DNA of 64,000 nt from Tropicimonas sediminicola (GTDB taxonomy: Bacteria; Pseudomonadota; Alphaproteobacteria; Rhodobacterales; Rhodobacteraceae): assembly GCF_900188335.1 (NCBI RefSeq), contig NZ_FZOY01000005.1, forward strand, positions 1 to 64,000. Reading direction: 5' to 3'. The notes beneath the pieces were generated by a model, which saw only the letters and a list, made by a program, of their open reading frames with translations, searched no databases and had not been told where the DNA came from. The position numbers and the translations under genes are program-made. This document shows, one piece after another, positions 6,984 to 44,087 of this stretch. The first letter of the stretch is position 1. Each line of letters starts with the position of its first letter.

Positions 6984-7042
6984 TGGGCCATAGCCCAGCG
7001 TTGTCGAAGTCGACATAATGGACGTCAGGGAGTTCACATTGA

Positions 7043-16368: not shown

Positions 16369-16481
16369 GTAGGGCACCCCCATGGGAAAAGGAGAAAGAC
16401 CAGCACGCTGAAATGCCGGCAGCATAGCACGCCGGAACGATCTTCCCTAACGTAACTTCTGACGGCGCAGCCGCCGCCACG

Positions 16482-18146: not shown

Positions 18147-18160
18147 GCGGACCCGTTCCG

Positions 18161-22080: not shown

Positions 22081-23109
22081 TCACACGTTCTCGGAGGTGT
22101 AGATCTCGAAGCCGAGCGCGACGCGTTGCGCCCCGGCGTCGACGCCGCCCTTCTTTACGCGGATCATCGTGTCGATCGTCTCGCGGGCAAAGCGTTCCAG
22201 AGGATGCGAGATCACCATCTTCAACGTGCCATCGATCAACGCCTCGCGGGTCGCGTCGAACAGCTCGTATCCGACAGCGACGAAGTCCTCCCGCTTGTCC
22301 GCCTCCCGGAGCGCCGCCAGCGCCCCGGTTATGCCGCCGCCCGAGATGAACAGGCCGCACAGGTTCGGATGATCGCGAAACAGGGCTTCGACCATCTCGC
22401 GGGCAACCGCCGCGGATTCGTAAGTCGCGAGCGGTTCGAGAGGGGTGAAGCCGGTGTTGTGCTCGCGGAAATACGAGCGGAAGCCGCTCTCGTTCATCTC
22501 CTGGTTCCGGTACCGGTGGTTGCCGACGAGGATGCCGATCTCTCCCGGCGTCCGGACCATGTTGTCGAAGGCCCAGGCCGCGGTGCGCCCGACCATCCAG
22601 CTGTCGAGCCCGACAAAGCTGACGTTGGCGCGCGCCGAGAGCGGCGCGATCAGCGCGACGACGGGAACGCCGCTGCCCGCCACGGTGTCGATCGCGTCGG
22701 CGACCCGCGGATGCTGCGCCGCCACGAGGGCCACGGCGTCGCATGACGTGCCGAGGTCGATCAGGCGGGCGGCGATGTTGTCGGGCGACAGATCGTCCAG
22801 GTATTCCAGATCGAGCTCGATCTGGTTGTCGGACCGGCGCCGGACCTCCTGTCGCAGGGCGCTGCCGAGGTTGCGATAGAAGGCGCGCCCGCCTTGCTGC
22901 AGCAGAACGCCGAGCCTGTGGGTGTCACGCCCCTTGCGGACCGAGCTTTCGATCGTGCCAAGACCGTAGAAGCCGATCTCCTCGGCCGTGGCGAGGACAT
23001 GCTCGCGCGTGTGCTTGCGAACCGAATCGGGGCGGTTCAGCACGCGGTTGACCGTCGAGACGGACACGTCCGCCGCCTTTGCCAGATCGCTGATCGTCAG
23101 TCGTTTCAC
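22081..23109 (-). CDS. LacI-family transcriptional regulator, paralogue A
   Basis: The 342-residue protein has an N-terminal LacI HTH (TISDLAKAADVSVSTVNRVL) and a periplasmic-binding-protein-like sensor domain. The GTG start at 23109, with AGGGG seven bases upstream, is preferred to an upstream ATG because it aligns with its paralogue at 27944-28972. The two are the same length and about two-thirds identical by eye, sharing for example NQEMNESGFRSYFREHN and VISHPLERFARET. The recognition helices are nearly the same, so their operators should be too. It is divergent from the desaturase/ferredoxin operon and probably controls it, responding to a sugar or cyclitol. Confidence 0.92.
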   Translation of the reverse strand: MKRLTISDLAKAADVSVSTVNRVLNRPDSVRKHTREHVLATAEEIGFYGLGTIESSVRKGRDTHRLGVLLQQGGRAFYRNLGSALRQEVRRRSDNQIELDLEYLDDLSPDNIAARLIDLGTSCDAVALVAAQHPRVADAIDTVAGSGVPVVALIAPLSARANVSFVGLDSWMVGRTAAWAFDNMVRTPGEIGILVGNHRYRNQEMNESGFRSYFREHNTGFTPLEPLATYESAAVAREMVEALFRDHPNLCGLFISGGGITGALAALREADKREDFVAVGYELFDATREALIDGTLKMVISHPLERFARETIDTMIRVKKGGVDAGAQRVALGFEIYTSENV

Positions 23110-23149
23110 TGTCTGCCCCTGCGCCACCTTGGCGCCATGTATCTCATTT

Positions 23150-23167
23150 TGACATATCGAAATGTCA
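23150..23167. promoter_or_regulatory. Candidate LacI-type operator between lacI-A and the hydroxylase operon
   Basis: TGACAT-ATCGAA-ATGTCA is an inverted repeat of 6+6+6, 41 bases upstream of the regulator start and about 100 upstream of the hydroxylase start. A related half, CGAAATGACAT on the minus strand, overlaps the leader of the paralogous regulator near 28972. The position suits autoregulation and control of the divergent operon. The link to either LacI protein is inferred. Confidence 0.35.
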
Positions 23168-23267
23168 TTTTGAAACAAAAAGCGGCGGCGCGTGAGATGA
23201 TGTTGATCGGTTTCCGGTCATGATGCCACAGAAGACGCTATGCATCGGCACCTGGGAGGAGCGATCC

Positions 23268-24293
23268 ATGGACGATCTCAAGTACGGGACCCGTGACAAG
23301 CGCGGCAACTGGACCCCGCTGAAACCGGCGGAGCCGGCCCCGATCTGGCACTGGCCGTTCAGCCTTTCCAAGGTGCTTTCCTGGATCCCGGAATACCTGT
23401 GGCCGTGGAACGCCTTCCACCTCGCGACCGCGCTTCTCTGGGTGCTGGTCCTGATCCCGAGCTGGGAGAGCCTCGCGACGCTGTCTCTGGCGAACTACGC
23501 CTATCTCTACGCCCTGAATGCGGTGGGGATGTTCGTGTTTCTCGGCAGCTTCGAGTTCGTCTATTACATCAAGCGCAAGCAGGAGAACCGTTTCAAGTAC
23601 AACGGGAAATTCCCTGCCGACCATCCGTCCGACGTGTTCTGGTTCAAGAGCCAGAACCTCGACAACTTCCTGCGGTCCTTCCTGATCACCATCCCGCTCT
23701 GGACCGTCGTCGAGATCGTGCTGCTCTGGGCCTATGCCAACAGCTGGGCCGTCTGGCTGCCCTGGACCACCCATTGGCTCTGGCTGAGCTTCGTGGTCCT
23801 GATGGCGCCGGCCGTGCACGAGGTCTATTTCTTCTTCCTGCACCGGGCCATCCACTGGCCGCCGCTCTACAAGCATATCCACTCCGTGCACCACAACTCG
23901 ATCAACCCGAGCCCGTGGTCGTCGCTGAGCATGCATCCGGGCGAGGGCTTTCCCTACATGGCAGAGGCCTGGCTGCACCTGCTGATCCCGTCGAACCCGA
24001 TCTGTGCCTATTTCACGCTGCACTCGGTGGGATTTGGCGCGGTGAACGGGCACCTGGGCTTCGAGAAGTTCGAACTGACCGAGAACCGGACGCTCGATAG
24101 CCACGCCTATGTCCATTACCTGCACCACAAGTATTTCGAGGTGAACTACGGCGGCGACGGGCTGGTCCCCCTCGATAAGCTCTTCGGCACCTGGCACGAC
24201 GGTTCGAAGGAATCCGACGAACGGATGAAGGAACGCTTCCGCAAGAAGAAGGATCGCCTGAAGGCCAAGCAGGCCGCCACCCCGGCGGAATAG
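23268..24293 (+). CDS. Sterol desaturase / fatty acid hydroxylase superfamily di-iron oxygenase (MocD-like role)
   Basis: The 341-residue integral membrane protein is of the PF04116 family. Hydrophobic segments lie around residues 45-60, 75-95, 135-155 and 165-185. The histidine clusters that bind two irons are complete: HRAIH (HxxxH), HSVHH (HxxHH) and HYLHH (HxxHH), plus HAYVH just before the last. These enzymes insert oxygen using electrons from a ferredoxin. The Rieske ferredoxin and FAD reductase that could supply them are the next two genes. In the rhizobial rhizopine system MocD is the oxygenase of an analogous set; equivalence here is by context. The start has GGGAGGAG upstream. Confidence 0.85.
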   Translation: MDDLKYGTRDKRGNWTPLKPAEPAPIWHWPFSLSKVLSWIPEYLWPWNAFHLATALLWVLVLIPSWESLATLSLANYAYLYALNAVGMFVFLGSFEFVYYIKRKQENRFKYNGKFPADHPSDVFWFKSQNLDNFLRSFLITIPLWTVVEIVLLWAYANSWAVWLPWTTHWLWLSFVVLMAPAVHEVYFFFLHRAIHWPPLYKHIHSVHHNSINPSPWSSLSMHPGEGFPYMAEAWLHLLIPSNPICAYFTLHSVGFGAVNGHLGFEKFELTENRTLDSHAYVHYLHHKYFEVNYGGDGLVPLDKLFGTWHDGSKESDERMKERFRKKKDRLKAKQAATPAE

Positions 24294-24466
24294 GCCGCAG
24301 GTGACCGGGCCGGCGGCGGCGGCCCTCCCCCGCCGCCGTTGCGCCCATTCACGAACACCGAAGTCCCGGCTTCCTGCCCCGTCTCCGGCGGGCGCAACCG
24401 GATATCGCACATCGAGATCACGAGCCCCGTCAGTGCGGGCGCCCTTGGAACCAGGAGGAGAGAGAC

Positions 24467-24778
24467 ATGGCCGAGTGGATTGATGCCTGCGCCGCAGGCG
24501 ACATCGAGGAAGAGGACGTGATCCGCTTCGATCACGGAGCGCGAACCTTCATCATCGTGCGGGACCACGAGGACAACTACTACTGCACGGACGGTCTCTG
24601 CACCCATGAGGAGGTGCATCTGTCGGACGGGCTGGTCGTCGAGGCGACGATCGAATGCCCGAAACACGCCTCGATCTTCGACGTCCGCAACGGCGAGGTC
24701 GAAACCCCGCCCGCCTGCGAGAACCTCAACACCTATCCGACCAAGGTCGAAGGTGGCCGCGTTTTCGTGGAGATCTGA
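24467..24778 (+). CDS. mocE: MocE-type Rieske [2Fe-2S] ferredoxin
   Basis: The 103-residue protein is a Rieske-type ferredoxin. The cluster ligands are in CTHEEVH (Cys-x-His) and CPKHAS (Cys-x2-His), separated by 15 residues as usual. Its closest remembered match is MocE of rhizopine catabolism (pattern VIRFDHGARTFIIVRD, NLNTYPTKVEGGRVFVEI). It would pass electrons from the reductase at 24861 to the di-iron oxygenase at 23268. A strong GGAGGAGAGA precedes the ATG. The gene lies 173 bases after the oxygenase and 82 before the reductase, all in one direction. Confidence 0.88.
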   Translation: MAEWIDACAAGDIEEEDVIRFDHGARTFIIVRDHEDNYYCTDGLCTHEEVHLSDGLVVEATIECPKHASIFDVRNGEVETPPACENLNTYPTKVEGGRVFVEI

Positions 24779-24860
24779 CATGGACGAGAGACAGGCCAGC
24801 CCGCGTGCGCACGCCCGAGGCGCGCGCAATCCCGCCCACCACGCTTTCCCGGGGTGACAT

Positions 24861-26051
24861 ATGGCGGAGATGGTCATCATCGGCGCTGGGGAATGCGGCG
24901 TGCGCGCGGCTTTCAGCTTGCGGGAGCACGGGCACGCCGGGCGCATCACCCTGATCGGGGCCGAAAGCAGCCTGCCCTATGAGCGCCCGCCTCTTTCGAA
25001 GGGCATGGGCGCGGCAAAGCCGATCCGCCCGGAAGAGGCCTATGACGAGGCCGGTATCTCGCTGATGCGGGGCGCGGAGGTGTCGCGGATCGACCGCGAT
25101 GCACAGCGCGTCCGCCTCGGCAACGGCGAGAGCCTGCCCTACGACAGGTTGCTGCTGGCAACAGGTGCCCGGGCGCGGCTGTTTCCGTCCCTTCAAGGCT
25201 GCCTCACCCTGCGGACGGACAGGGACGCCGCGGCGCTCCTGCCGCGCCTGACGCCCGATGCCCGTATCGGCATCATCGGCGGCGGCTTCATCGGGCTGGA
25301 ACTCGCGGCAACGGCCCGCTCCCTTGGGGCAAGGGTGACCGTGATCGAGGCCGCGCCGCGCTTGTTGGCCCGTGCGGTGCCTGCGGAGATCGCCGCGGTC
25401 GTCGAGGCCCGGCATCGTGCGGAGGGTGTGGACCTGCGCATCGGCACCGGTGTGGCAAACGCGACCGGCGAGACCATCACCCTTGCCGATGGCGCCACCC
25501 ACGCCTTCGACGCCGTGATCGCGGGCGTGGGCTCCGTGCCGAACACGGAGCTGGCGGAGCAGGCGGGGCTGACGGTCGAGAACGGCGTCCGCGTGGACAG
25601 TCGCTTCCGCACCCCCGACCCGGCGATCTTCGCCGCCGGCGATTGCTGCAGTTTCGAGTGGCGGGGCGCGCGCCTGCGTCTCGAAAGCTGGAAGGCCGCG
25701 CAGGATCAGGGCGCGTTCGCGACCGCCTGCATGCTCGGGTGCGAAGGCGAAGAAACCTACGGAAGCGTGCCCTGGTTCTGGTCCGATCAATACGACCTGA
25801 CCCTCCAGGTGGCTGGTCTGTTCGACCCTGCCCGCCCGGTGCACCAGCGGAGCACGGGCGACGGCCAATGCGTCGTGTTTCAGTGTGACCCAGGCAATGC
25901 CCCCGCCGCCGCCGCCGGGATCGGCCCGGGCAACGCTGTGGCAAGGGACATCCGCATTTTCGAGAAACTGATAGAGCGCGGCGTGCCCGTGGAACCCGAC
26001 GTGCTCGCCGACCCCTCCCAGAACCTCAAACGGCTCCTCCGGGCAGCCTGA
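24861..26051 (+). CDS. FAD-dependent ferredoxin reductase (MocF-like)
   Basis: The 396-residue flavoprotein belongs to the class that reduces 2Fe-2S ferredoxins for oxygenases (rhodocoxin/putidaredoxin reductase type). Visible sites are the FAD-binding IIGAGECGVRAAFSLREHG, LLLATGARARLFP, the NADH-binding IGIIGGGFIGLELAATARS and AIFAAGDCCSF, where FAD is closed off. Here the NAD-site GGGFIG is intact. It follows the MocE-type ferredoxin and is 17 bases upstream of the PanB-like gene. With the di-iron oxygenase it gives a complete three-component electron chain, matching mocDEF of rhizobia, thought to demethylate 3-O-methyl-scyllo-inosamine. Confidence 0.88.
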   Translation: MAEMVIIGAGECGVRAAFSLREHGHAGRITLIGAESSLPYERPPLSKGMGAAKPIRPEEAYDEAGISLMRGAEVSRIDRDAQRVRLGNGESLPYDRLLLATGARARLFPSLQGCLTLRTDRDAAALLPRLTPDARIGIIGGGFIGLELAATARSLGARVTVIEAAPRLLARAVPAEIAAVVEARHRAEGVDLRIGTGVANATGETITLADGATHAFDAVIAGVGSVPNTELAEQAGLTVENGVRVDSRFRTPDPAIFAAGDCCSFEWRGARLRLESWKAAQDQGAFATACMLGCEGEETYGSVPWFWSDQYDLTLQVAGLFDPARPVHQRSTGDGQCVVFQCDPGNAPAAAAGIGPGNAVARDIRIFEKLIERGVPVEPDVLADPSQNLKRLLRAA

Positions 26052-26068
26052 CCGGAAAGGACGACCCG

Positions 26069-26887
26069 ATGTATCACAATCGACCCCACGTCGAAGACAT
26101 CCGCGCCATGAAGAAGCGCGGCGAGAAGATCTCGATGCTGTTCGTGACCACGCCCGAGGAGGCCGCCGCTGCCGCGGCTGCGGGTATCCACATGCTGTCG
26201 ATCGAGGGGCGTTTCTTCGATGCCGAGATGCGCGAGGCCGCGGGCGACTGCTTCGTGCAGGTGGGGCTGCCCTACGGCGGCTGGGGCCGGTTCGAAGGGC
26301 GCCCGATCGCGACGGCCGAGGATTACCTGCGCGCCGCCTTCCACTATGCGGGGATCGGGGGCGACGCCTATTACTGCGCCGCCTCCTATGACATCCAGAA
26401 GGTGCTCTGCGACAATCACCTGCCGGTGGTCGGCCATATCGGCCTGATCCCGAGCTACATCACCTGGACCGGCTGGCGTGCCGTGGGCAAGACGGCGGGC
26501 GAGGCCGAAGCGCTCTGGCGGCACACCCGGAAGCTGGAGGAGATCGGCGTTTTCGGGGCGGAACTGGAGGTCGTGCCGGACCGGGTGGCGAAGTTCCTGA
26601 CCGAGAATTCCTCGCTCGTCATGCTGGGCATGGGAGCGGGCAGGTATGCCGACGCCCAGTATCTCTTTACCGAGGATGTCTGCGGCTATGGCCGGAACCA
26701 CAAGCCGCGCCACGGCAAGGTCTACCGCAACTTCGCGCCCGAACTGGAGCGGCTGCAGGCCGAGCGGATCGCGGCATTCAGGGAGTTCAAAGCGGATGTG
26801 GAATCCGGCGGGTACCCGGGGCCGGAACATACCGTCCCGATCCGCGACGACGAGTTCGATGCCTTCCTCAACTCCGTGAAGGGCTGA
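26069..26887 (+). CDS. Divergent PanB-like (ketopantoate hydroxymethyltransferase superfamily) protein
   Basis: The 272-residue protein has the overall PanB pattern. HIGLIPSYITWTGWRAVGKT corresponds to PanB's HLGLTPQSV...GGYKVQGK. LEVVP (Glu167) matches LECVP, and the C-terminal VESGGYPGPEH matches VESGVYPGEEH. The metal ligands of E. coli PanB (Asp45, Asp84, Glu114) and its Lys112 align by eye to Glu46, Gly66, Ala104 and Tyr102, so the usual Mg site is missing. PanB transfers a one-carbon unit from methylene-tetrahydrofolate. Here the neighbours suggest O-demethylation, so a role with the released C1 unit or in C-C cleavage is possible. It is 17 bases after the reductase and 3 before the dehydrogenase. 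Confidence 0.7.
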   Translation: MYHNRPHVEDIRAMKKRGEKISMLFVTTPEEAAAAAAAGIHMLSIEGRFFDAEMREAAGDCFVQVGLPYGGWGRFEGRPIATAEDYLRAAFHYAGIGGDAYYCAASYDIQKVLCDNHLPVVGHIGLIPSYITWTGWRAVGKTAGEAEALWRHTRKLEEIGVFGAELEVVPDRVAKFLTENSSLVMLGMGAGRYADAQYLFTEDVCGYGRNHKPRHGKVYRNFAPELERLQAERIAAFREFKADVESGGYPGPEHTVPIRDDEFDAFLNSVKG

Positions 26888-26890
26888 GCG

Positions 26891-27919
26891 ATGCTGCGGA
26901 TCGGCGTGGTTGGCTACGGGACGGGCGGGCAGCATTTCCACACGCCCTTCATCGCGGCGGCCGAGGGCTGCAGGCTGACGGGCATCGTGGCGCGGGCGGA
27001 GCGGACGGTGGCGAAAGCGCGGGCTGACTGGCCCGGCGTGCCGGTCTTCGCCAGCCTGACCGCGATGATCGAGGCCGGTGCTTGCGACGCTGTGACCATC
27101 ACCACGCCGCCCCAAACCCGCAGGGCACTGGTGCTGGAGGCCGTCGCCGCGGGGCTCCATGTCATCGCCGACAAGCCCTTCGCCCCGAATTACGAGGGCG
27201 CGATGGCGCTGGACGCAGCGGCGAGCGCCAGGGGCGTGACCCTCGGCGTCTACCAGAACCGCCGTTTCGACGCGGACCTCCAGACCCTCCGCAAGGTCAT
27301 CGCGGATGGACGCATCGGCAAGGTCTGGCGGGTTCATTCCCGCATGGATCAGGACAGCCCCCAGACCCTCGAGGCCGGTCCGACCGGCGGCCTGCTGCGC
27401 GATCTCGGCTCCCACGTGGTCGACCAGATGATCTACCTTCTGGGGCCGGTCGCGGCGGCTACGGCGACGATGGACATGGTGGACCTGCCCGAGGGGCCGA
27501 CGGATGCCTGTTTCACCCTGACGCTCCGGCACGAGACCGGGGCGCACAGCCACCTGTCGGCGTCCAAGCTCAACCATGTCGACGCGCGCGAGCTGCGCGC
27601 CTATGGCGACAAGGGGTGCTACCTCTCCCGCACCACCGATGTGCAGGCGCAGGACATCTTTGCCGGAAAACGCCCGGCGGATGATCCCGCCGCCTGGGGA
27701 TACGAGCCCGAGGCCAACTGGGGCACGCTCTTCACCGCCGCCGGAGCCGAAACCATCCCCTCCGAACAGGGGCGGTATCACGATTACTACGAAGCCTTTG
27801 CGCGGGCCGTCCGTGAAGGTGCGCCGCCACCGGTCACCGCAGAGGTCGGCGCGCGGACCCTGGCGATCCTCGATGCCGCCCGGCAGAGCGCGGCGGAAGG
27901 GAGAACCGTTCCGGTGTGA
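26891..27919 (+). CDS. Gfo/Idh/MocA-family NAD(P)-dependent dehydrogenase
   Basis: The 342-residue protein has an N-terminal Rossmann fold (GVVGYGTGGQHFHTPF) and the family's catalytic Lys in ADKPFAP. The C-terminal domain contains the GSHVVDQMIY signature (His, Asp). It resembles MocA-type enzymes that oxidise cyclitols or sugars. It is the last gene of the oxygenase operon, three bases after the PanB-like gene. Its likely task is oxidation of the demethylated product to a keto compound (inosose-like), by analogy to MocA. The exact substrate is not readable from sequence. Confidence 0.85.
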   Translation: MLRIGVVGYGTGGQHFHTPFIAAAEGCRLTGIVARAERTVAKARADWPGVPVFASLTAMIEAGACDAVTITTPPQTRRALVLEAVAAGLHVIADKPFAPNYEGAMALDAAASARGVTLGVYQNRRFDADLQTLRKVIADGRIGKVWRVHSRMDQDSPQTLEAGPTGGLLRDLGSHVVDQMIYLLGPVAAATATMDMVDLPEGPTDACFTLTLRHETGAHSHLSASKLNHVDARELRAYGDKGCYLSRTTDVQAQDIFAGKRPADDPAAWGYEPEANWGTLFTAAGAETIPSEQGRYHDYYEAFARAVREGAPPPVTAEVGARTLAILDAARQSAAEGRTVPV

Positions 27920-27943
27920 GCGCCGCCGTGCCGCGACGGTGGG

Positions 27944-28972
27944 TCAGACGCTTTCCGGCGTGTGGATATCGAAATCGAAGGTGACCCGTCGGGCGCCGCC
28001 GTCAGGGCCGGAGGCCTTGGATTTCATCAGGGTCGCCACGGTCTCGCGCGCGAAGCGTTCGAGGGGGTGCGAGATGACCAGCGAGAGCGTGCCGTCGATC
28101 AGCGCGGCGCGCGTGTCGTCAAAGAGCTCATAGCCCACGGTCACGAAGTCGTCCCGCTTGGGCATGGCCCGCAGGGCGGCGATGGCGCCCGTGATGCCGC
28201 CGCCGGACACGTAGAGGCCGCACAGGTCGGGATGCTCGGTCAGCAGCTTCTCCACATGCTCGCGTGCGACCGCCGAGGATTCGTAGGTGGCAAGCGGCTC
28301 GAGCAGGGTGAATTCCGAATTGTGCTCGCGGAAGTAGGACCGGAACCCGCTTTCGTTCATCTCCTGGTTCCGGAGCCGGTGACTGCCGACGAGGATGCCG
28401 ATCTTGCCCGGCTCGCGCACCATCTTGTCGAACGCCCAGGCCGCCGTGCGACCGACCTTCCAGTTGTCGAGCCCGACGAAGCTGATGTTTCCGCGCGCCG
28501 ACAGCGGGCCGATCAGCGAGACGACGGCCACGCCCTTGTCGATCACGGTGTCGATGGCGTCGGCCACCAGCGGGTGCTGCGGCGCGACGATGGCGATCGC
28601 CTCGTTGCGCTCGCCCAGCGACAGGATGTGCGCGGCCACCTTCTCCGGCGCGAGATCGTCGAGGAACTCCATCGTCAGGTCGATGTTGGCGCCGGGATGG
28701 GTCGCGGCGGCGTCGGCGATGGCCTCGCCAAGGATGCGGTAGAACACCCGCACCCCGCGCAGCAGGAGCACCCCGAGCCGGTGCGTGGTCTGAGTCGACC
28801 GGACCGCGTGCTCGATCGTCCCCAATCCGTAGAACCCGATCTCTTCCGCCGCCCGCAGGACGCGCTCCCGCGTCGGCTCCCGCACCGATTCCGCCTGATT
28901 GAGCACGCGGTTGACCGTGGACACGGAGACGCCTGCAGCATCGGCGAGATCGGGGATTGTCGGGCGTTTCAT
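27944..28972 (-). CDS. LacI-family transcriptional regulator, paralogue B
   Basis: This 342-residue regulator matches the one at 22081-23109 in length and most of its sequence. The HTH is TIPDLADAAGVSVSTVNRVL. The sensor domain shares NQEMNESGFRSYFREHN, LEPLATYESSAVARE and SGGGITGAIAAL. The ATG at 28972 is used because the paralogue begins at the same point. It is convergent with the Gfo/Idh gene (24 bases between stops) and divergent from the ABC transporter/iol operon. It is therefore the likely local repressor of inositol-type uptake and catabolism. The two copies could divide control of the two operons. Confidence 0.92.
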   Translation of the reverse strand: MKRPTIPDLADAAGVSVSTVNRVLNQAESVREPTRERVLRAAEEIGFYGLGTIEHAVRSTQTTHRLGVLLLRGVRVFYRILGEAIADAAATHPGANIDLTMEFLDDLAPEKVAAHILSLGERNEAIAIVAPQHPLVADAIDTVIDKGVAVVSLIGPLSARGNISFVGLDNWKVGRTAAWAFDKMVREPGKIGILVGSHRLRNQEMNESGFRSYFREHNSEFTLLEPLATYESSAVAREHVEKLLTEHPDLCGLYVSGGGITGAIAALRAMPKRDDFVTVGYELFDDTRAALIDGTLSLVISHPLERFARETVATLMKSKASGPDGGARRVTFDFDIHTPESV

Positions 28973-29368: not shown

Positions 29369-30328
29369 ATGACTTTCAACAAGACCCTGGCAGCAACCGC
29401 TGTTGCGACCCTCATGGCATCCGGCGCAATGGCGCAGGACATCGCCGTGATCGGCGGGTCGGCCCAGGACGGCTTCTGGAACCTGATCAAGAAGGGCGTG
29501 GACGACGCCACGCTGGTCGTCGAAGCCAACGGTGGCACGGTCAACTACCTGCTGACGCAGAACTACGACAACTTCGGCCCCGACCTCGTGACCCTGATCG
29601 AACAGGCCGTGGCACAGGGCGTCGACGGCATCGCCATCCCGAACTGGCTGCCCGAGTCCGAAACCCCGGCGCTGATCGCCGCCGCGGAAGGCGGCGTCGT
29701 CATCACCTCCTACAACGCCGGTCAGAGCGAGATGGAGAAGTACGGTGCACTGAACTACTTCGGCTCGGACGAGTATCTCGCCGGTGTGGCGGGCGGCAAG
29801 TACCTGGCCGAGCAGGGCGCCAAGAAGATCCTGTGCCACATCCAGATCCCCGGCGCGATCAACCTTGAAACCCGCTGCGAAGGCGTCACCGACGGCGCGA
29901 AGGAAGCGGGCGCCGAGACCTATATCGTGCGTGTCCCCGCCAACCTCGACGGCGACATGGTCGGCACCTCGGAAGCCATCAAGGCCGAGCTGATCGCCGA
30001 CGACTCGATCGACGCCGTGATCAACCTGGCCGCCTGGGCCGCTGACGCCTCGGCCTCGGCCATCGAGCAGCTGGGCAAGACCGACAGTGTCATGCTGGGC
30101 ACCTTCGACATGTCCGCATCGGTCCTGAACCGCATCGAAGCCGGAACCCAGACCATGGCCATCGACCAGCAGCCCTACCTGCAGGGCTTCCTCGCCACCT
30201 CGATGCTGTTCGCCAACCTGAAGTTCGGCACCGAGCTCGCGACGCAGCCGGTTCTGACCGGTCCGGCGATCGTCGATGCGTCCAACGTGGCATCGGCAAT
30301 CGAGGGCGTGAAACTCGGCGCACGCTGA
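29369..30328 (+). CDS. Sugar/cyclitol ABC transporter substrate-binding protein
   Basis: The 319-residue periplasmic protein has a signal peptide ending at AMAQ and a type-I (LacI/ribose-like) binding fold, seen in DIAVIGGSAQDGFWNLIKKG, VDGIAIPNWLP and GTFDMSASVLNRIEAGT. It should capture a pentose, hexose or inositol-like solute and deliver it to the permease at 30426. IbpA/InoB-type inositol binders are in the same family. Location at the head of an iol operon supports a cyclitol substrate, which is inference. A hairpin at 30347-30371 separates it from the permease, typical for raising binding-protein dose. Confidence 0.9.
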   Translation: MTFNKTLAATAVATLMASGAMAQDIAVIGGSAQDGFWNLIKKGVDDATLVVEANGGTVNYLLTQNYDNFGPDLVTLIEQAVAQGVDGIAIPNWLPESETPALIAAAEGGVVITSYNAGQSEMEKYGALNYFGSDEYLAGVAGGKYLAEQGAKKILCHIQIPGAINLETRCEGVTDGAKEAGAETYIVRVPANLDGDMVGTSEAIKAELIADDSIDAVINLAAWAADASASAIEQLGKTDSVMLGTFDMSASVLNRIEAGTQTMAIDQQPYLQGFLATSMLFANLKFGTELATQPVLTGPAIVDASNVASAIEGVKLGAR

Positions 30329-30371: not shown

Positions 30372-30425
30372 GATCCTCGCAGTCATGTTTCAAAGCTGCT
30401 CGCAGTATCTCGGGAGATGGTCCAG

Positions 30426-31481
30426 ATGACCGACACGACATCAATCAGCAATTCCGAACCTGCACCAAAGCCGGCTCCCGCATCCGGCGGGTTCTCCTTC
30501 GGAGCGTTCTTTCGCAGCCCGGCGGCCGGGGCGTTCATGGGCTTTGTCGTCGTTTTCGTGGTCTTTGCGATTTTCGGTTTCAGCAGGAATTTCCTTTCGA
30601 TCCCGGGCATTACCACCTGGGTGAACTTCGCCTCCCTCGTCGGGATCATCGCCATTCCCGTCGGCTTCCTGATGATCGCGGGAGAGCTCGACATCTCGAC
30701 CGGCGCCGTGCTTCCGGCAGGAGCAATGACGGTCGCGATCCTGTCCGGTCACTACGAACTGCCGGTCCTGGTCGGAATCCTCGGGGCCCTGTGCGTCGGC
30801 GCGATCGTGGGCTTCATCAACGGCTTCATCGTCACCCGGACACAGGTGCCGTCCTTCATCGTCACCCTCGCCACGCTCTTCGCGGTCGCGGGTCTGACGC
30901 TCTACCTGTCGATCCTGTTCATCAACAACACCAACTCCTTCTACCACGCCCCGGACTGGGCCAAGACGCTCTTCGGCGGCAAGGTCTTCGGCTTCAACTC
31001 GTCGGTGTTCTGGTGGATCGGCCTGGTGGCGGCGTTCTACTTCTTCCTGCACAAGTCCCCCAAGGGCGCCTGGGTCTTCGCGCTCGGCGGTGACCAGGAA
31101 AGCGCCCGCAACGCCGGTATCCCGGTGAACCGCCTGAAGATCGGCCTGTTCATGCTGTGCTCGACCTGTGCGGCCTTTGCCGGCGCGCTCCAGGTGATCA
31201 CCTTCAACTCGGCCACCAGCCAGGCCAACTTCGGCCTGATCTTCAACACCATCATCTCGGTCGTGGTCGGCGGCGTGCTGCTGACCGGTGGCTTCGGAAC
31301 GGTCATGGGCATCGTCTTCGGCGTGCTGACCCTCGCCATCGTCACCCAGGCCATCGGTTTCACCGAGATCGACCGGAACCTGTCGTTCCTCATCATCGGT
31401 GTGATGCTTCTCATCGCCGTTCTCATGAACGACACCTTCCGCAACATCGCGACCAGCTGGTCGACATCCAAGAAGAAGTAA
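30426..31481 (+). CDS. Sugar ABC transporter permease
   Basis: The 351-residue membrane protein is a BPD_transp_2-type permease with about 8-10 hydrophobic segments after a ~35-residue Ser/Pro-rich cytoplasmic N-terminus. Family features include ISTGAVLPAGAMTV, IVGFINGFIVTRTQVPSFIV and the C-terminal GGVLLTGGFGTVMGIVFG. The start ATG 30426, nine bases after GGGAG, is favoured over ATG 30417, which would touch that site. It forms the channel for the solute bound by the 29369 protein. It is followed 10 bases later by the ATPase gene. Confidence 0.88.
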   Translation: MTDTTSISNSEPAPKPAPASGGFSFGAFFRSPAAGAFMGFVVVFVVFAIFGFSRNFLSIPGITTWVNFASLVGIIAIPVGFLMIAGELDISTGAVLPAGAMTVAILSGHYELPVLVGILGALCVGAIVGFINGFIVTRTQVPSFIVTLATLFAVAGLTLYLSILFINNTNSFYHAPDWAKTLFGGKVFGFNSSVFWWIGLVAAFYFFLHKSPKGAWVFALGGDQESARNAGIPVNRLKIGLFMLCSTCAAFAGALQVITFNSATSQANFGLIFNTIISVVVGGVLLTGGFGTVMGIVFGVLTLAIVTQAIGFTEIDRNLSFLIIGVMLLIAVLMNDTFRNIATSWSTSKKK

Positions 31482-31491
31482 GGAGAACCTC

Positions 31492-32316
31492 ATGTCGGAC
31501 AAGCAACCCGTTCTCGAACTTCGCAATGTCGACAAGTCCTTTGGTCCGATCGACGTGCTTCACGAAATCAGCCTGAAGGTGGGCGAGGGCGAAGTGCTCT
31601 GCCTGCTGGGCGACAACGGCGCGGGCAAGTCCACCCTGATCAAGACCCTCGCCGGCGTGCACCAGCCCACCAACGGCGAGATCTTCATGGATGGCGAGCT
31701 GACGACGTTCTCCAGCCCGCGCGAGGCACAGGAGCGTGGGATCGCGACGGTGCACCAGTTCGGCGGCACCTATCCGCTGATGTCGGTCGGTCACAACTTC
31801 TTCATGGGCATGGAGCCGACCAAGGGGTTCTGGCCCTTCAAGGTCTACGACCGCGAGAAGGCCAACAGGATCGCGGTGGAAGAGGTCCAGAAGATGGGCA
31901 TCACCCGGATCACCGACGGCGACCGGCTGGTCGGCGGGCTGTCGGGCGGCGAGCGCCAGTCACTGGCCATTGCCCGCGCAGTGTATTTTGGCGCCCGTGT
32001 CCTGATCCTCGATGAGCCGACCGCGGCGCTCGGCGTGAAGCAGGCCGCCCACGTGCTGCGCATCGTGAACGAGGCCAAGAAGCGCGGGCTGGCGGTGATC
32101 TTCATCACCCACCAGGTCATGCACGCGATGGCCGTCGGCGATCACTTCGCGGTGCTGATCCGCGGCGCGATCGCGGCCGACTTCCGCAAGGGCGACAAGA
32201 CCCGCGAGGAGATCGCGGACCTGATGGCGGGGGGCGAGTCCATGGCGGACCTCGAGGCGAATATCGAGGGCTACATGGAAACCCACGAAGGCCACGTGCC
32301 GCCGCCGGCCCACTGA
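31492..32316 (+). CDS. Sugar ABC transporter ATP-binding protein, single domain
   Basis: The 274-residue ATPase carries one nucleotide-binding domain. Walker A is GDNGAGKST, the signature motif is LSGGERQ, Walker B is LILDEPTAAL and the switch His is in FITHQ. Many ribose-type importers use a double ATPase (RbsA-like), so a single-domain form (as in FrcA-type systems) would work as a dimer. The C-terminal ~35 residues are acidic and Pro/His-containing, lacking a regulatory domain. AGGAGAACCTC precedes the ATG. It completes the ABC importer. A hairpin at 32321-32342 follows. Confidence 0.92.
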   Translation: MSDKQPVLELRNVDKSFGPIDVLHEISLKVGEGEVLCLLGDNGAGKSTLIKTLAGVHQPTNGEIFMDGELTTFSSPREAQERGIATVHQFGGTYPLMSVGHNFFMGMEPTKGFWPFKVYDREKANRIAVEEVQKMGITRITDGDRLVGGLSGGERQSLAIARAVYFGARVLILDEPTAALGVKQAAHVLRIVNEAKKRGLAVIFITHQVMHAMAVGDHFAVLIRGAIAADFRKGDKTREEIADLMAGGESMADLEANIEGYMETHEGHVPPPAH

Positions 32317-32342: not shown

Positions 32343-32409
32343 CGCGTTCCAGCATCTTTTGAACGAACTCGGTCGCCCGACGGCGGACCGCAAGAGGGAG
32401 AGTGTCACG

Positions 32410-33432
32410 ATGACACGTGTGGCCATCATCGGCGCGGGGCTCATGGGGGAGGACCACGCCAGAATCGTTGCCGAGGATCTCCCCGGGGCGACGCTGCAGG
32501 TCGTCTGCGACATGAACCGGGAGCGTGCGGCGGCGGTGGCCGACAGCTGCGGCGCACAGGACGCTGCGAGCGATCCGGAAGCGGTGATCCGGCGCGATGA
32601 CGTCGACGCCGTGATCGTGGCCTCGCCCGATTTCACGCACGCGCCGCTCTCGATGGCCTGCATCGCCGCCGGCAAGCGCGTGTTGTGCGAGAAGCCTCTG
32701 TCGCAATCCCCTGCGGAATGTATCGAGGTGATGAAGGCGGAACAGGTGGCGGGCGAGCGTTTCGTGATGCTGGGTTTCATGCGCCGGTTCGATCAATCCT
32801 ACGTGGAGATGCGGCAGGCGCTGGCCGAAGGCCGGCTCGGGCGCGCGCTGATGATGCACAACTTCCACCGCAACGTGGAAACCCCGGCAGCGGACTTCAC
32901 CGGCGCCATGGCGATCACCAATTCCGCACCGCACGAGTTCGACGTGGTGCGTCACGTACTGGACACCGAGTTCACCTCGGTGACCGCGCTCCAGCCGCGC
33001 CGCTCGGATGACCGCGTTGCGCCGGTGGTGATGGTGCTGGAAACCGGCGACGGCCAGCTCGTCACCATTGAGATCAACAACAACGCCGATTACGGCTACG
33101 ACGTGCGCGCGGAACTGGTTGGCGAAGCCGGCTCCATCGCGATGAACAACGTGGCCTATACCCGGACAGACATGAAGCTCGCCGCCGCCACCCGCTACGA
33201 CGCGGACTGGCGCGGGCGCTATCGCGAGGCCTACGTGCGCCAGAACCGGGCGTTCCTGCACTTCGTCGAGACCGGCCGCTTCCCCGGCATCGCGTCGGAT
33301 TGCTGGGACGGCTATTGCGCGGCCGTCGTGGCCCAGGCGGGGGCGAGGGCGCTGGCAACCGGCCAAAAGCAGCCGGTCGAGATGATGGACAAGCCCGAGT
33401 TCTACCGCGGGCAACGGGGGGTGGCGGCATGA
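32410..33432 (+). CDS. Gfo/Idh-family inositol 2-dehydrogenase-like protein
   Basis: The 340-residue enzyme has the Rossmann motif AIIGAGLMGEDHARI, catalytic CEKPLSQSP, and GFMRRFDQSYVEM, a signature shared with inositol 2-dehydrogenase IolG. The HEFDVVRHV segment supplies the His/Asp of the active site. It would oxidise myo-inositol or a stereoisomer to an inosose with NAD. It is a second dehydrogenase in the region, besides those at 26891 and 35186, so isomer specificity probably differs. Its stop overlaps the start of the 33429 gene (ATGA). Confidence 0.85.
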   Translation: MTRVAIIGAGLMGEDHARIVAEDLPGATLQVVCDMNRERAAAVADSCGAQDAASDPEAVIRRDDVDAVIVASPDFTHAPLSMACIAAGKRVLCEKPLSQSPAECIEVMKAEQVAGERFVMLGFMRRFDQSYVEMRQALAEGRLGRALMMHNFHRNVETPAADFTGAMAITNSAPHEFDVVRHVLDTEFTSVTALQPRRSDDRVAPVVMVLETGDGQLVTIEINNNADYGYDVRAELVGEAGSIAMNNVAYTRTDMKLAAATRYDADWRGRYREAYVRQNRAFLHFVETGRFPGIASDCWDGYCAAVVAQAGARALATGQKQPVEMMDKPEFYRGQRGVAA

Positions 33433-34388
33433 AGCTCGGGTTCGTATCCGACAGCCTCGGCGGCATGAGCTTCGAGGCGATGCTCGACGCAGCCGTGCGG
33501 ATGGAGGTCAGCGGGGTCGAGGTGAACACCTGCGGCTGGTCCACGGCGCCGCATTTCGACCTGGCGGCGATGCTCGGCGACGCGGGCGCGCGCAAGGCGT
33601 TCCGGGCTGCCTTTGCGGAGCGCGGGCTCGAAATCATCTCGCTCAACGCCAACGGAAACCCGCTGCATCCCACCGACCCGGCGCAGGGCGAGGGATTGAA
33701 GGACACGATCCGCGTGGCCGGGGAACTGGGCATCACGACGGTCTGCACCATGTCCGGCCTGCCGGCCGGCACCGCCACCGACACAATGCCGAACTGGGTC
33801 GTGTCTTCCTGGCCACCGGAGACGCAGGAGATCCTGCGCTACCAGTGGGAAGAGAAACTCGTCCCGTTCTGGACAGAGATCGCGGGGCTGGCCCGCGACA
33901 ACGGCGTCGAGCGCATCGCGCTCGAACTGCACGGTAACCAGTGCGTCTATAATGTACCCTCCCTGAAGAAACTGCGCGACGCGGTCGGGCCCGTCATCGG
34001 GGCAAACCTCGACCCGTCGCACCTTTTCTGGATGGGCGCCGACCCGCTGGTGGCGGCCGAGGCGCTGGGCGACGCGGTCTACCATGTTCATGCCAAGGAC
34101 ACGATGCTGAACGCCCCGGTGCAGGCAACCACGAGCCTGCTGGAAAATGGCTCGCTGATGGATATCCCGGCGCGGAGCTGGTCCTACATCACGCTCGGTT
34201 TCGGTCACGGCGAGGAATGGTGGCGGCAATTCTGCTACCGTCTCAAGATGGCCGGCTATGACGGCTGGCTGTCGATCGAGCACGAGGACGTGCTCCTGAA
34301 CTCTCTTGAAGGGCTCGAGAAATCCGTGGCCCTGCTGCAGGGCGTGATGCCCGTTGCCCCTTCCGACTTCAAACCACAGGACATCTGA
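33429..34388 (+). CDS. Sugar phosphate isomerase/epimerase (YcjR-like TIM barrel)
   Basis: The 319-residue protein is a xylose-isomerase-like TIM barrel. Metal-site and active-site strands appear in ERIALELHGNQCVY, IGANLDPSHLFWMGADP, AVYHVHAKDT and DGWLSIEHEDV, containing the usual Glu, Asp/His, His and Glu ligands. The LDPSHLFWMGADP form is typical of the YcjR group, epimerases that act on 3-keto sugars together with Gfo/Idh dehydrogenases. Here the partner would be one of the adjacent dehydrogenases, so the substrate may be an inosose. It overlaps the 32410 stop and ends one base before the next gene. Confidence 0.78.
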   Translation: MKLGFVSDSLGGMSFEAMLDAAVRMEVSGVEVNTCGWSTAPHFDLAAMLGDAGARKAFRAAFAERGLEIISLNANGNPLHPTDPAQGEGLKDTIRVAGELGITTVCTMSGLPAGTATDTMPNWVVSSWPPETQEILRYQWEEKLVPFWTEIAGLARDNGVERIALELHGNQCVYNVPSLKKLRDAVGPVIGANLDPSHLFWMGADPLVAAEALGDAVYHVHAKDTMLNAPVQATTSLLENGSLMDIPARSWSYITLGFGHGEEWWRQFCYRLKMAGYDGWLSIEHEDVLLNSLEGLEKSVALLQGVMPVAPSDFKPQDI

Positions 34389-34389
34389 G

Positions 34390-35163
34390 ATGGGCTTTCA
34401 ACTCGCGGCCTGCGCCGAAATGCTCTGGCAGGACAAACCGATCGCATGGCGCGCGGCGCGCCTGCACGAGATGGGCTTCGGCGTCGGGCTCTGGAACTGG
34501 CCCGCGTGGGATCTCGACGCGCTGGAGAAGACCGGCGCCACCTTCACCATCATGAACGGCTATCTCGAAGGCCGGCTCGCCGATGCCGAGGGCGCCGAGA
34601 TGCTTCTGAAGTCCGCCCGCGAGACCGCGCAGGTCGGCAAGCGACTCGGCGTGCAGCGGCTCAACCTGCATGGCACGGGGCTCGGCGATCAGGGCCTGCC
34701 GATCCAGCAGCTCGCCCATGTGGCGCCGGGCATGTGGCTGCGGGCCCGCGACACGCTTCACCGGATCTGCGACATGGCCGAGGGAGAGGGCGTGACCTTC
34801 ACGCTGGAGAACCTCAACCTGCGCGAGCATCCCGGTTGCCCGTTCAACTCGACGGCGGACGTGCTGTCGCTGGTCGCCGCCGTCGACAGGCCGCAACTGC
34901 GCATCAACCTCGATCTCTACCACACGCAGATCGGCGAGGGGGACGTGATCCGCCATGCCGAGGCCTGTCTGCCCTGGATCGGCGAGGTGCAGGTTGCCGA
35001 CAACCCGGGGCGTTGCGAGCCGGGCACCGGAGAGATGAACTGGCCGATGATTGCGCGGGCGCTGGATGATATGGGTTATGCCGGTCCGGTCGGCATGGAA
35101 GCCTATGCCAGGAATGACCCGGAAGACGCCCTCGCGGCCTTCCGTGCTGCCTTCACGCTGTAA
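34390..35163 (+). CDS. Hydroxypyruvate-isomerase-like TIM-barrel protein
   Basis: The 257-residue protein resembles Hyi/OtnI-type isomerases. TFTLENLNLREHPGC holds a Glu ligand, INLDLYHTQIGEGD has Asp and His, IGEVQVADNPGRCEPGTGEM is the Hyi-like loop, and AGPVGMEAYA has the last Glu. Members isomerise hydroxypyruvate or small keto-sugars. In this cluster it could act on an inosose or a cleavage product; MocC of rhizopine catabolism is another isomerase-type protein of the same fold. It is placed between the YcjR-like gene and iolG. Start ATG 34390 overlaps nothing and lies one base past the preceding stop. Confidence 0.78.
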   Translation: MGFQLAACAEMLWQDKPIAWRAARLHEMGFGVGLWNWPAWDLDALEKTGATFTIMNGYLEGRLADAEGAEMLLKSARETAQVGKRLGVQRLNLHGTGLGDQGLPIQQLAHVAPGMWLRARDTLHRICDMAEGEGVTFTLENLNLREHPGCPFNSTADVLSLVAAVDRPQLRINLDLYHTQIGEGDVIRHAEACLPWIGEVQVADNPGRCEPGTGEMNWPMIARALDDMGYAGPVGMEAYARNDPEDALAAFRAAFTL

Positions 35164-35185: not shown

Positions 35186-36181
35186 ATGTTGAAAGTGGGT
35201 CTCCTTGGTGCCGGCCGCATCGCCGGCGTTCACGCCACCGCCATCTCCTCCCATCCCGGCAGTACCCTGGCCGCCGTTTCGGATTTCTACCCGGAGAACG
35301 CCGAGAAGCTGGCCGCGCAATACGGCTCGGTCGCCCGCACGACGGAGGAGATCATCGCCGATGACAGCATCGACGCGGTGCTTATCGCGACCTCGACCGA
35401 CACGCATTCCGACCTGATCGAGGCGGCGACGCAGGCCGGCAAGGCGGTGCTCTGCGAGAAGCCGGTGGACCTCAGCCTCGAACGTGCGCGGGCCTGCCAG
35501 ACGGCGACCGCGACGACCGGCAAGCCGGTGATGATCGGCTTCAACCGCCGCTTCGATCCCAACTTCGGGGCGATGAAGGCGGCGCTCAAGGCCGGCGATA
35601 TCGGCAAGCCGGAACTGCTGTCGATCACCTCCTTCGACCCGGCGCCGCCGCCGGTGGCCTACGTCAAGGTGTCCGGCGGGTTGTTCCGCGACATGATGAT
35701 CCACGATTTCGACATGGCCAATTTCATGATGGGCGAACCGCCGGTCTGGGTCATGGCGGCCGGGTCCTCGATCGTGGATCCCGAGATCGGCGCTGCGGGC
35801 GACGTCGACACCGCGGTGGTGACGATGACCTATGCCGACGGTCGGATCGCGGTGATCAAGAACTCCCGACGGGCGGTCTATGGCTATGACCAGCGGGTCG
35901 AGTTGCTCGGCTCCGAGGGGCTTCTGCAGGCGCAGAACATGCTGGAAAACACCGTGGTCAAATCGACCACCGCGGGCGTGACCGGGGCGAAGCCCACCTA
36001 TTTCTTCCTCGAGCGATACATGCCGTCCTATGCCGCCGAATGGGCTGCCTTCATGGAGGCGATCAGCGGTGGCGGCGCGCTTCCGGTGACGCTCGACGAC
36101 GGCATCGCGGCGCTGGCCATGGCCGAGGCCGCAACCCAATCGCGCAAGACGGGCGCGCCCGTGCGACTGGCCGACGTCTGA
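35186..36181 (+). CDS. iolG: Inositol 2-dehydrogenase (IolG-like)
   Basis: The 331-residue enzyme has GLLGAGRIAGVHATAI (NAD-binding), CEKPVDLS (catalytic Lys), MIGFNRRFDPNF and GGLFRDMMIHDFDMANF, all characteristic of IolG. It oxidises myo-inositol to 2-keto-myo-inositol (2-inosose), the first step before IolE. Its position directly before iolC-iolD-iolE supports this. The paralogue at 32410 may act on other stereoisomers such as scyllo-inositol. The gene starts 22 bases after the Hyi-like gene. Confidence 0.85.
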   Translation: MLKVGLLGAGRIAGVHATAISSHPGSTLAAVSDFYPENAEKLAAQYGSVARTTEEIIADDSIDAVLIATSTDTHSDLIEAATQAGKAVLCEKPVDLSLERARACQTATATTGKPVMIGFNRRFDPNFGAMKAALKAGDIGKPELLSITSFDPAPPPVAYVKVSGGLFRDMMIHDFDMANFMMGEPPVWVMAAGSSIVDPEIGAAGDVDTAVVTMTYADGRIAVIKNSRRAVYGYDQRVELLGSEGLLQAQNMLENTVVKSTTAGVTGAKPTYFFLERYMPSYAAEWAAFMEAISGGGALPVTLDDGIAALAMAEAATQSRKTGAPVRLADV

Positions 36182-36265
36182 GGCGCGGGCCATGGCGGGG
36201 GCATGCGAACCCCTCGCCATGGCGCGGCCGCACGGCCGGACGATCATGCAGGTAGGAGAGGACGC

Positions 36266-39999: not shown

Positions 40000-40904
40000 T
40001 GGCTGTGAAGATCGGGATATCGCTCATCGCCTGGCAGAACGACGACCTGCCGGAACTGACCGCGGCCTTCACCACCGAAGGCGCGATGGAGGACGCCGGG
40101 CGCATCGGCTACCAGGGCGTCGAACGCGGCCGCCGGATGCCGGCGGATACCGAAGGGCTGCGCGCCTATCTCGACCGTTACGGCGTCGCGCTCTGCGGCG
40201 GCTGGTGCTCGGGCAACCTGATGCAGGCGTCTGTGGCCGAGGAGAAGGAGGCGATCCGCCAGCAGGTCGAGCAATTCGCGGCGCTCGATGCCCCCTGCAT
40301 CGTCTATGCCGAATGCTCCAACACGGTGCAGGGCGAGATCGGCACCCCGGTCAGCCAGCGGCCCAAGCTCGGCCGGGACGACGTGCTGGCCTATGCCGCG
40401 AAGCTCTCGGAACTGGCCAGATGGTCCGCCGATCAGGGCGTGGTGCTGAGCTATCATCACCACATGGGCAGCATGATCGAGGACGCGGAGGATATCGACT
40501 GGCTGATGGAGGGGAGCGATCCGGCACTGACGCTGCTCTATGACACCGGGCACCTGCATTTCGCCGGCGCGGACCCGCTGGCGGTGCTCGACAAGTGGGG
40601 CGACCGCATCCACCACGTCCATTTCAAGGACGTGCGCCAGCCGGTGATCGACCGCATCCGCGCCGAGGATCGCAGCTTCCTCGATGCGGTGGCGGGCGGG
40701 GCCTTTACCGTACCGGGGGATCCCGAGGGCAGCATCGACTTCCAGGCGGTGACCGACCGGCTCAAGGCGATGGACTACGCCGGCTGGATCGTCGTCGAGG
40801 CCGAGCAGGACCCTGCCAAGGCGCCGCCCTTCGACTACTCGAAATTGGGCTACGAGCACATCGTCTCGATCTGCGGCAGGTCCGGATTGCAGATCGAAGG
40901 CTGA
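39999..40904 (+). CDS. iolE: Myo-inosose-2 dehydratase
   Basis: The 301-residue TIM barrel removes water from 2-keto-myo-inositol to give 3D-(3,5/4)-trihydroxycyclohexane-1,2-dione. Sequence marks are GISLIAWQNDDLPEL at the N-terminus, LSYHHHMGSMIEDAEDIDWL, LLYDTGHLHFAGADP, and HHVHFKDVR, which provide the Glu/Asp/His metal site. The start overlaps the iolD stop (TGATG). The next gene, a dioxygenase-like protein, begins 53 bases later with its own strong ribosome binding site. Confidence 0.9.
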   Translation: MAVKIGISLIAWQNDDLPELTAAFTTEGAMEDAGRIGYQGVERGRRMPADTEGLRAYLDRYGVALCGGWCSGNLMQASVAEEKEAIRQQVEQFAALDAPCIVYAECSNTVQGEIGTPVSQRPKLGRDDVLAYAAKLSELARWSADQGVVLSYHHHMGSMIEDAEDIDWLMEGSDPALTLLYDTGHLHFAGADPLAVLDKWGDRIHHVHFKDVRQPVIDRIRAEDRSFLDAVAGGAFTVPGDPEGSIDFQAVTDRLKAMDYAGWIVVEAEQDPAKAPPFDYSKLGYEHIVSICGRSGLQIEG

Positions 40905-40957
40905 TTTCGCCGGTCCCGTTCGGGGCCAAAACGCAAGCCATGGCAATGGAGGTTTTC

Positions 40958-42139: not shown

Positions 42140-42166
42140 CGCGGCGGGTCGCAACTCCAGCTCCGG

Positions 42167-42183
42167 CCGGCCATTTTGGCCGG
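42167..42183 (+). terminator. Hairpin between the PhyH-like gene and iolB
   Basis: CCGGCCA and TGGCCGG pair around TTT, 28 bases after the stop. There is no U-run beyond it. It may tune expression of iolB relative to upstream genes. Confidence 0.4.
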
Positions 42184-42203
42184 TCGGAATGAAAGGACAT
42201 CAG

Positions 42204-44069: not shown

Positions 44070-44087
44070 TGGGTTTCCTCCGGTTGA

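Follow-up and report, generated by a model that had tools for sequence, protein, structure and literature searches.

A di-iron hydroxylase, MocE ferredoxin and PanB-like cassette beside the inositol operon of Tropicimonas sediminicola, a candidate module for demethylation of methylated inositols

The cassette and its recurrence across genomes

The stretch analysed here (the window) comprises the first 64,000 nucleotides of contig NZ_FZOY01000005.1 of Tropicimonas sediminicola and contains, at positions 22081-28972, a cassette with the order LacI (minus strand) / PF04116 hydroxylase, MocE-family ferredoxin, flavin adenine dinucleotide (FAD) reductase, PanB-like protein, Gfo/Idh dehydrogenase (plus strand) / LacI (minus strand). 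These genes had been named in an earlier note made from the letters alone, and all of them are open frames at those positions, with families assigned from Pfam and NCBIfam. Intergenic gaps in the plus-strand unit are 173, 82, 17 and 3 bases. The bracketing LacI regulators, which the same note described as paired paralogues, are 67% identical to each other, and the full inositol operon that it placed nearby is confirmed, with iolG, iolC, iolD, iolE and iolB (five of five) all above their NCBIfam cut-offs (Table 1).

In Tropicimonas marinistellae, listed in the same genus, the arrangement (contig G296:C1; loci L086 and L249) is identical to that in the window and the PanB-like protein is 94% identical. 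For a wider view we used the best 80 of at least 513 relatives of the PanB-like protein, from Rhodobacterales, Mesorhizobium, Rhizobium, Ensifer, Shinella, Labrys, Comamonadaceae, Leptothrix and others; these loci are related to each other and are not independent. All except L165 carry an annotated PanB-like frame, and 55 of these 79 are "full-flank" loci, with at least 9 kb upstream and at least 3 kb downstream. Among the full-flank loci an oxygenase is found in 52 (hydroxylase in 49, MocD type in 8, both in 5), MocE likewise in 52, and oxygenase and MocE together in 50; L090 and L111 are without an oxygenase, L141 and L164 without MocE, and L153 without either. LacI regulators occur in 43 of the 55, transporter parts in 49, a counterpart of the second xylose-isomerase-like triosephosphate isomerase (TIM) barrel in 40 and a ferredoxin reductase in 16, and 28 have an iol gene (iolG called at 60% identity or more, other iol genes at 40% or more) within about 10 kb. 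Therefore the PanB-like gene, which had been regarded as additional to the oxygenase set, is instead a regular partner of MocE and the oxygenase.

A further 54 hand-picked stretches, which include many distant PanB-like proteins, gave 52 with a PanB-like frame; within 10.5 kb an oxygenase occurs in 42 of the 52, MocE in 33 and the two together in 27. Counted from the ferredoxin, 26 of 41 MocE places (120 genomes searched, 28 positive) lie within 3 kb of a PanB-like gene, and counted from the other partner, MocE lies within 3 kb in 26 of 43 PanB-like places (genomes G000-G118). Of 295 genomes from the window's family, 67 have the PanB-like protein (E <= 1e-20, distant matches included). Since the arrangement is kept in T. 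marinistellae and the oxygenase, MocE and PanB-like genes recur together in dozens of loci, as the comparison of gene order suggested in the earlier note has revealed, it is not a product of chance.

The oxygenase itself varies. The annotated operon of Gemmobacter fulvus reads LacI / sterol desaturase family, substrate-binding protein (SBP), permease, ATPase, MocE, TIM barrel, PanB-like and iolG, and pSymB of S. meliloti ml28 carries LacI / desaturase, MocE, reductase and PanB-like, with a similar set in Rhizobium sp. N324. MocD-type proteins tested from relatives are FA_desaturase (PF00487). A quick tree was made of 69 PanB-like proteins, of which 53 go with a single clear type of oxygenase (among them L156, whose contig has little sequence upstream). 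On this tree the oxygenase type of the 53 must have changed at least three times, and so the oxygenases seem to be exchanged around a MocE/PanB-like core. In S. meliloti 1021 LacI, mocD, mocE and mocF are SMb20817-20820, according to an excerpt of PMC11387232. The pSymB cluster thus shares with the window the order LacI / oxygenase, MocE, reductase, PanB-like, whereas its oxygenase is of the FA_desaturase (MocD) type and no transporter or iol genes are annotated beside it. The remark that the host does not look like a legume symbiont is right in that T. sediminicola is no obvious symbiont, but similar cassettes are spread over many bacteria of soil and water, legume symbionts among them, and are found in Mesorhizobium, Rhizobium, Ensifer and, in the MocD version, on S. 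meliloti pSymB.

The hydroxylase of the window is of the sterol-desaturase kind, as had been noted, matching FA_hydroxylase (PF04116) with 66.9 bits (cut-off 31) and not being of the MocD type. Its histidine ladder HxxxH, HxxHH, HxxHH is invariant across 37 aligned proteins. A profile of the cassette hydroxylases scores 278-583 bits on PanB-linked hydroxylases, tested on those of the window, of Tropicimonas and of seven distant loci, whereas other PF04116 proteins from 30 relatives, a comparison set with no named lipid enzyme in it, score no more than 59 bits; the exception is L191, at 304 bits, with neither MocE nor a PanB-like gene found in the surrounding 20 kb. Because of this split in scores, the cassette hydroxylases are, at the level of sequence profiles, a subfamily distinct from most of the remaining PF04116 proteins in these relatives. 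The split also bears on the idea that the substrate of the hydroxylase is a membrane lipid or some other compound that is not a cyclitol, the inositol linkage being incidental. PF04116 is a lipid-hydroxylase family by name and about half of the loci have no nearby iol gene; against this, a sugar-type transporter and often iolG share the operon and the profile separates the subfamily with one exception, and we regard a lipid substrate as the least probable of the explanations considered here. The predicted model of the hydroxylase (pLDDT score 79.3) found no match at E <= 0.001 in a Foldseek search of the PDB, which is no evidence for or against a new fold, and a sequence search of the PDB returned nothing meaningful.

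The PanB-like protein and its folate-linked neighbours

The PanB-like protein matches Pantoate_transf (PF02548) with 111.5 bits (cut-off 28.7) and reaches only 78.7 of the 207.55 bits of the panB model TIGR00222. The genome encodes its true PanB elsewhere, on contig C15 (315.9 bits against the same cut-off), adjoined by a panC that passes its own model (285.9, cut-off 212.75). In a profile alignment to PanB (ketopantoate hydroxymethyltransferase) of E. coli, the cassette protein has G, Y and A opposite D84, K112 and E114, which we take to be metal and substrate (ketoacid) ligands, and the D45 position is not resolved by the alignment. As the true PanB is found elsewhere and all three alignable site residues are replaced, the cassette protein is, judged by sequence, not the pantothenate enzyme.

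It shares with PanB the TIM-barrel fold, the C-terminal half and conserved histidine and glutamate positions. The best match of its predicted structure (pLDDT 87.5) is PanB 3vav, with Z 25.0 and a root-mean-square deviation of 2.6 Å over 211 aligned residues, and 1m3u gives Z 24.3; isocitrate-lyase-type lyases follow at Z about 15. G66, Y102, C103, H123 and E167 are invariant across 45 proteins, with H123 and E167 at the positions of E. coli H136 and E181. The alignment and the model together suggest that the ketoacid site has been lost and that the fold and two catalytic positions have been retained. Tandem PanB-like pairs exist in distant relatives (L073:9159-10775, near a hydroxylase; L072:9224-10791, near a MocD-type gene) and are perhaps a heteromeric form. 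An aldose epimerase label for a gene beside some distant PanB-like genes was dropped because neither Pfam nor NCBIfam matched that gene at the thresholds applied.

Among the unassigned neighbour clusters most frequent at PanB-like loci, PurU came first and FolD was also present, neither having been sought. Two representatives tested of each pass the curated models, PurU at 331.7 and 333.0 bits (equivalog cut-off 285.95) and FolD at 472.3 and 459.6 bits (subfamily cut-off 396). In 12 of the 80 loci PurU is no more than 5 kb from the PanB-like gene, on the same strand in 11 and with FolD alongside in 8, the hosts being Vannielia, Rhodobacter, Rhizobium, Shinella, Mesorhizobium, Ensifer, a Comamonadaceae metagenome-assembled genome and Leptothrix. 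The background was taken from the genomes of 42 of 43 chosen loci (all 12 positives are among the 43; L157 was left out), in which there are 57 PurU matches (three of them partial and under the cut-off) in 241.4 Mb. By chance one would expect PurU within 10 kb (20 kb per locus) 0.20 times for 42 loci and 0.38 times for 80, bearing in mind that the loci are not independent. In the 54-stretch set PurU is found in three, at distances of 0.8, 1.7 and 8.6 kb; in one it is on the opposite strand, and one also has FolD. Fifteen of the 67 PanB-like-positive family genomes have PurU (18 copies), and 3 of the 18 copies are within 10 kb of a PanB-like gene, with a second FolD copy beside one of these three (G034). 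The window's own genome has three PurU and two FolD copies, none near the operon, one FolD and one PurU being neighbours on contig C17.

Proposed function and its alternatives

With confidence a little above even, we propose that the cassette is a regulated catabolic module for oxidative O-demethylation of methyl-inositols of the pinitol or ononitol type, in which the one-carbon (C1) unit passes to tetrahydrofolate (THF) via the PanB-like protein and on to FolD and PurU. The observations behind this proposal are the gene content, order and recurrence, the replaced PanB site residues, the fold of the PanB-like model and the FolD/PurU linkage in some relatives, and from them we infer the substrate, the O-demethylation and the folate transfer. 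The ATP-binding cassette (ABC) transporter would import the methyl-inositol, and the FAD reductase would take electrons from NAD(P)H and pass them via the MocE ferredoxin to the di-iron hydroxylase, which would turn the O-methyl group into a hemiacetal (R-O-CH2OH). The PanB-like TIM barrel may then move the C1 unit to THF, giving 5,10-methylene-THF and free inositol with little free formaldehyde, and FolD and PurU would turn that carbon into formate. The inositol set free, probably of the chiro or myo type, would be oxidised by IolG or the Gfo/Idh enzymes and isomerised by the TIM-barrel proteins, and the product degraded by IolE-D-B-C. Free inositol is the most likely product because an inositol 2-dehydrogenase and a cyclitol-type transporter are in the same operon; a demethylation releasing one carbon is put forward since it fits the precedent of the mocDEF genes of rhizopine (3-O-methyl-scyllo-inosamine) catabolism and the FolD/PurU link; and the case for folate transfer by the PanB-like protein comes from its fold, its residues and, again, FolD and PurU.

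Parts of this scheme have counterparts. In marine bacteria the methyl group of 6-O-methyl-galactose is stripped by an oxygenase, a ferredoxin and a reductase, although that oxygenase is a P450 and not a di-iron enzyme and is not known to have a PanB-like partner. In the THF-dependent O-demethylases LigM and DesA the methyl carbon ends on folate, as proposed here, but by direct methyl transfer without O2 and in another protein family.

Several points weigh against our proposal. FolD and PurU are absent from the window, and 68 of the 80 loci have no PurU. The other FolD of the genome lies about 1.5 kb from the true panB, and so the nearness of FolD to a gene of the PanB fold can be unremarkable. 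O-CH2OH hemiacetals break down spontaneously, and therefore a catalyst is not strictly required. A PanB-like gene is missing within 3 kb of 15 of the 41 MocE places, and MocE within 3 kb of 17 of the 43 PanB-like places. Some relatives carry other sugar-type transporters, so that the family may not be confined to inositols, and 27 of the 55 full-flank loci lack iol genes in the nearest 10 kb or so; the earlier note had offered an operon usually away from iol genes as a refutation, and the outcome is half and half. In Burkholderia cenocepacia a MocD-MocE-reductase set stands near iolG and no PanB-like gene was found there, and hence some oxygenases of this kind can do without the PanB-like protein.

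The Burkholderia set and the many loci without FolD/PurU speak for a scheme in which the same O-demethylation takes place but the PanB-like protein works without folate. It would then be an aldolase, lyase or isomerase (phosphoenolpyruvate mutase/isocitrate lyase superfamily) whose substrate is the ring product, and formaldehyde would be freed and detoxified by general enzymes. The replaced PanB site residues and the rank of isocitrate-lyase-type lyases next after PanB in the fold search also speak for this scheme. However, the FolD/PurU linkage is far above background, and the PanB-like protein also stands beside oxygenases in loci with other sugar-type transporters, which makes a ring-specific step less likely; we consider this scheme unlikely, though it deserves more weight than the others discussed here as alternatives to folate-coupled O-demethylation.

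PanB chemistry suits a carbon-bound hydroxymethyl group next to a carbonyl, and mytilitol and laminitol are marine compounds. C-demethylation of such a C-methyl inositol can thus be envisaged, the methyl being converted to CH2OH, the neighbouring carbon oxidised and a retro-aldol reaction of the PanB-like protein passing the CH2OH to THF, that is PanB chemistry reversed. It would account for the FolD/PurU linkage, and many hosts are Rhodobacterales, several of them marine. In contrast, the cassette is frequent in bacteria of legumes and soils, habitats rich in O-methyl inositols, and the PanB site residues are replaced; we judge this variant very improbable.

The earlier note had read the genes as resembling the rhizopine mocDEF set and as a route for O-methylated or amino inositols. 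The resemblance is real for the ferredoxin, which exceeds the cut-off of the MocE family (TIGR02377, 151.3 against 136.15 bits), and for the MocA-family dehydrogenase, and the SBP is distantly like the rhizopine SBP. It fails elsewhere: the SBP reaches 152 of 420 bits on that model, six MocD-type (PF00487) queries from relatives have no match in the window, and MocR is not among the two regulators of the cassette, both LacI, to which the search for MocR was confined within the window. As excerpted in PMC10107442 and PMC5789663, which cite Bahar 1998, the rhizopine mocDEF system of S. meliloti L5-30 / R. leguminosarum has in common with the cassette a MocE-type ferredoxin, a ferredoxin reductase, an oxygenase, a MocA-family dehydrogenase and the inositol link, whereas the cassette has a PF04116 oxygenase instead of MocD, LacI instead of MocR, the PanB-like protein and, in some relatives, FolD/PurU. 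An SBP above the rhizopine cut-off exists in 2 of 385 genomes of the class, and the 20 kb around each contain iolC, iolD and Gfo/Idh matches and no MocD, MocE, hydroxylase or PanB-like match. These loci are uninformative on whether rhizopine mocDEF has a PanB-like partner, but they do place the rhizopine SBP away from the cassette, which is also widespread outside rhizobia. The evidence therefore lowers catabolism of rhizopine or scyllo-inosamine to an improbable reading. What stands of the earlier proposal is an oxygenase set with iol genes, here and in 28 of the 55 full-flank loci, with rhizopine as the weaker substrate.

For our proposed O-demethylation, pinitol or ononitol are natural guesses. 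Excerpts of PMC8730688 describe both compounds as widely produced in legumes and abundant in nodules, and in those of PMC5789663 pinitol, at 145 uM, has the highest concentration of all compounds in a Mimosa root exudate that induced mocDEF- and mocB-like genes of Rhizobium mesoamericanum. The authors suggest rhizopine; pinitol would explain the same induction data. Beetle-associated fungi and bacteria use pinitol, with no genes named in the excerpted text (PMC4738288). In the open-licence literature we found no bacterial genes for methyl-inositol demethylation beyond rhizopine mocDEF, and among the best-ranked matches we recognised no link of the PanB-like protein to MocE or to inositol demethylation.

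More broadly, it is possible, though we place it somewhat short of even, that a PanB-fold family has been recruited as the folate-dependent C1 acceptor of membrane di-iron demethylases, with interchangeable PF04116 and MocD oxygenases, for methylated inositols and sugars, and that it is widespread in Alphaproteobacteria and present in Betaproteobacteria. If so, these would be genes for bacterial demethylation of methylated inositols, removing the O-methyl group in a folate-coupled manner with little free formaldehyde, and they would explain proteins annotated as 3-methyl-2-oxobutanoate hydroxymethyltransferase and as sterol or fatty-acid desaturase, a PanB-fold/di-iron system now assigned to pantothenate synthesis and sterol or fatty-acid desaturation.

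Coordinates and surroundings

Table 1. Genes of the cassette and of the adjoining transporter and inositol operon, in window positions.
Feature	Position	Strand	Basis or remark
LacI-family regulator A	22081..23109	-	PF00356 and PF13407; GTG start at 23109 likely
Membrane di-iron hydroxylase, predicted oxygenase	23268..24293	+	PF04116 and histidine ladder
MocE-family Rieske ferredoxin	24467..24778	+	TIGR02377 over cut-off
FAD-dependent ferredoxin reductase, MocF-like	24861..26051	+	Pyr_redox_2 and Reductase_C
PanB-like protein, proposed C1-transfer partner	26069..26887	+	PF02548; far under panB cut-off; PanB fold in predicted model
Gfo/Idh/MocA dehydrogenase	26891..27919	+	GFO_IDH_MocA
LacI-family regulator B	27944..28972	-	LacI family in Pfam search
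Sugar/cyclitol binding protein, rhizopine-SBP-like	29369..30328	+	NF052284 152.3 bits, cut-off 420
ABC transporter permease	30417..31481	+	PF02653; same place in relatives
ABC transporter ATPase	31492..32316	+	PF00005; same place in relatives
Gfo/Idh dehydrogenase, nearest inositol/D-chiro-inositol dehydrogenase model	32395..33432	+	NF052679 259.7 of 540 bits
Xylose-isomerase-like TIM barrel 1	33426..34388	+	PF01261
Xylose-isomerase-like TIM barrel 2, possible inosose isomerase	34378..35163	+	PF01261
iolG, inositol 2-dehydrogenase	35186..36181	+	TIGR04380 421.9, cut-off 355
iolC kinase/aldolase fusion	36203..38173	+	NF047869 711.5, cut-off 600
iolD, start approximate	38173..39999	+	TIGR04377 909.9, cut-off 715
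iolE	39999..40904	+	TIGR04379 371.4, cut-off 290
iolB, true start probably further in	42069..43010	+	TIGR04378 344.7, cut-off 205

Inside the inositol operon, between iolE and iolB, lies a PhyH-family (phytanoyl-CoA dioxygenase-like) gene (40937-42136, plus strand), which may encode a second oxygenase acting on a modified cyclitol; L089, Vannielia litorea, is the only one of the loci searched (L032-L165 and L226-L229) in which a relative of it was found at E <= 1e-20. A near-palindrome at 23150-23167, TGACATATCGAAATGTCA, was considered as a LacI operator and dropped after comparison in relatives. Sought in 50 LacI-hydroxylase intergenic regions (the L093 stretch being empty), it did not recur convincingly: only L086 (13/18) beat all its shuffles by a wider margin, and L101 and a few others did so by one.

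Tripartite ATP-independent periplasmic (TRAP) transporters are found both upstream (17145-19989, plus strand; DctP, DctM) and downstream (43092-45979, minus strand; DctP, DctM, DctQ). A phytochelatin synthase family gene is at 15652-16425 (minus strand), and a RimK-like ATP-grasp gene followed by an AstE/AspA-type deacylase at 52727-54723 (plus strand). Positions 1-14011, where guanine-cytosine content is 0.50-0.59 compared with 0.62-0.72 in the remainder of the window, contain a DUF3987 protein, a ResIII-domain protein and, at 12938-14011, a phage-type integrase, and are probably an integrated element with its edge near 14 kb.

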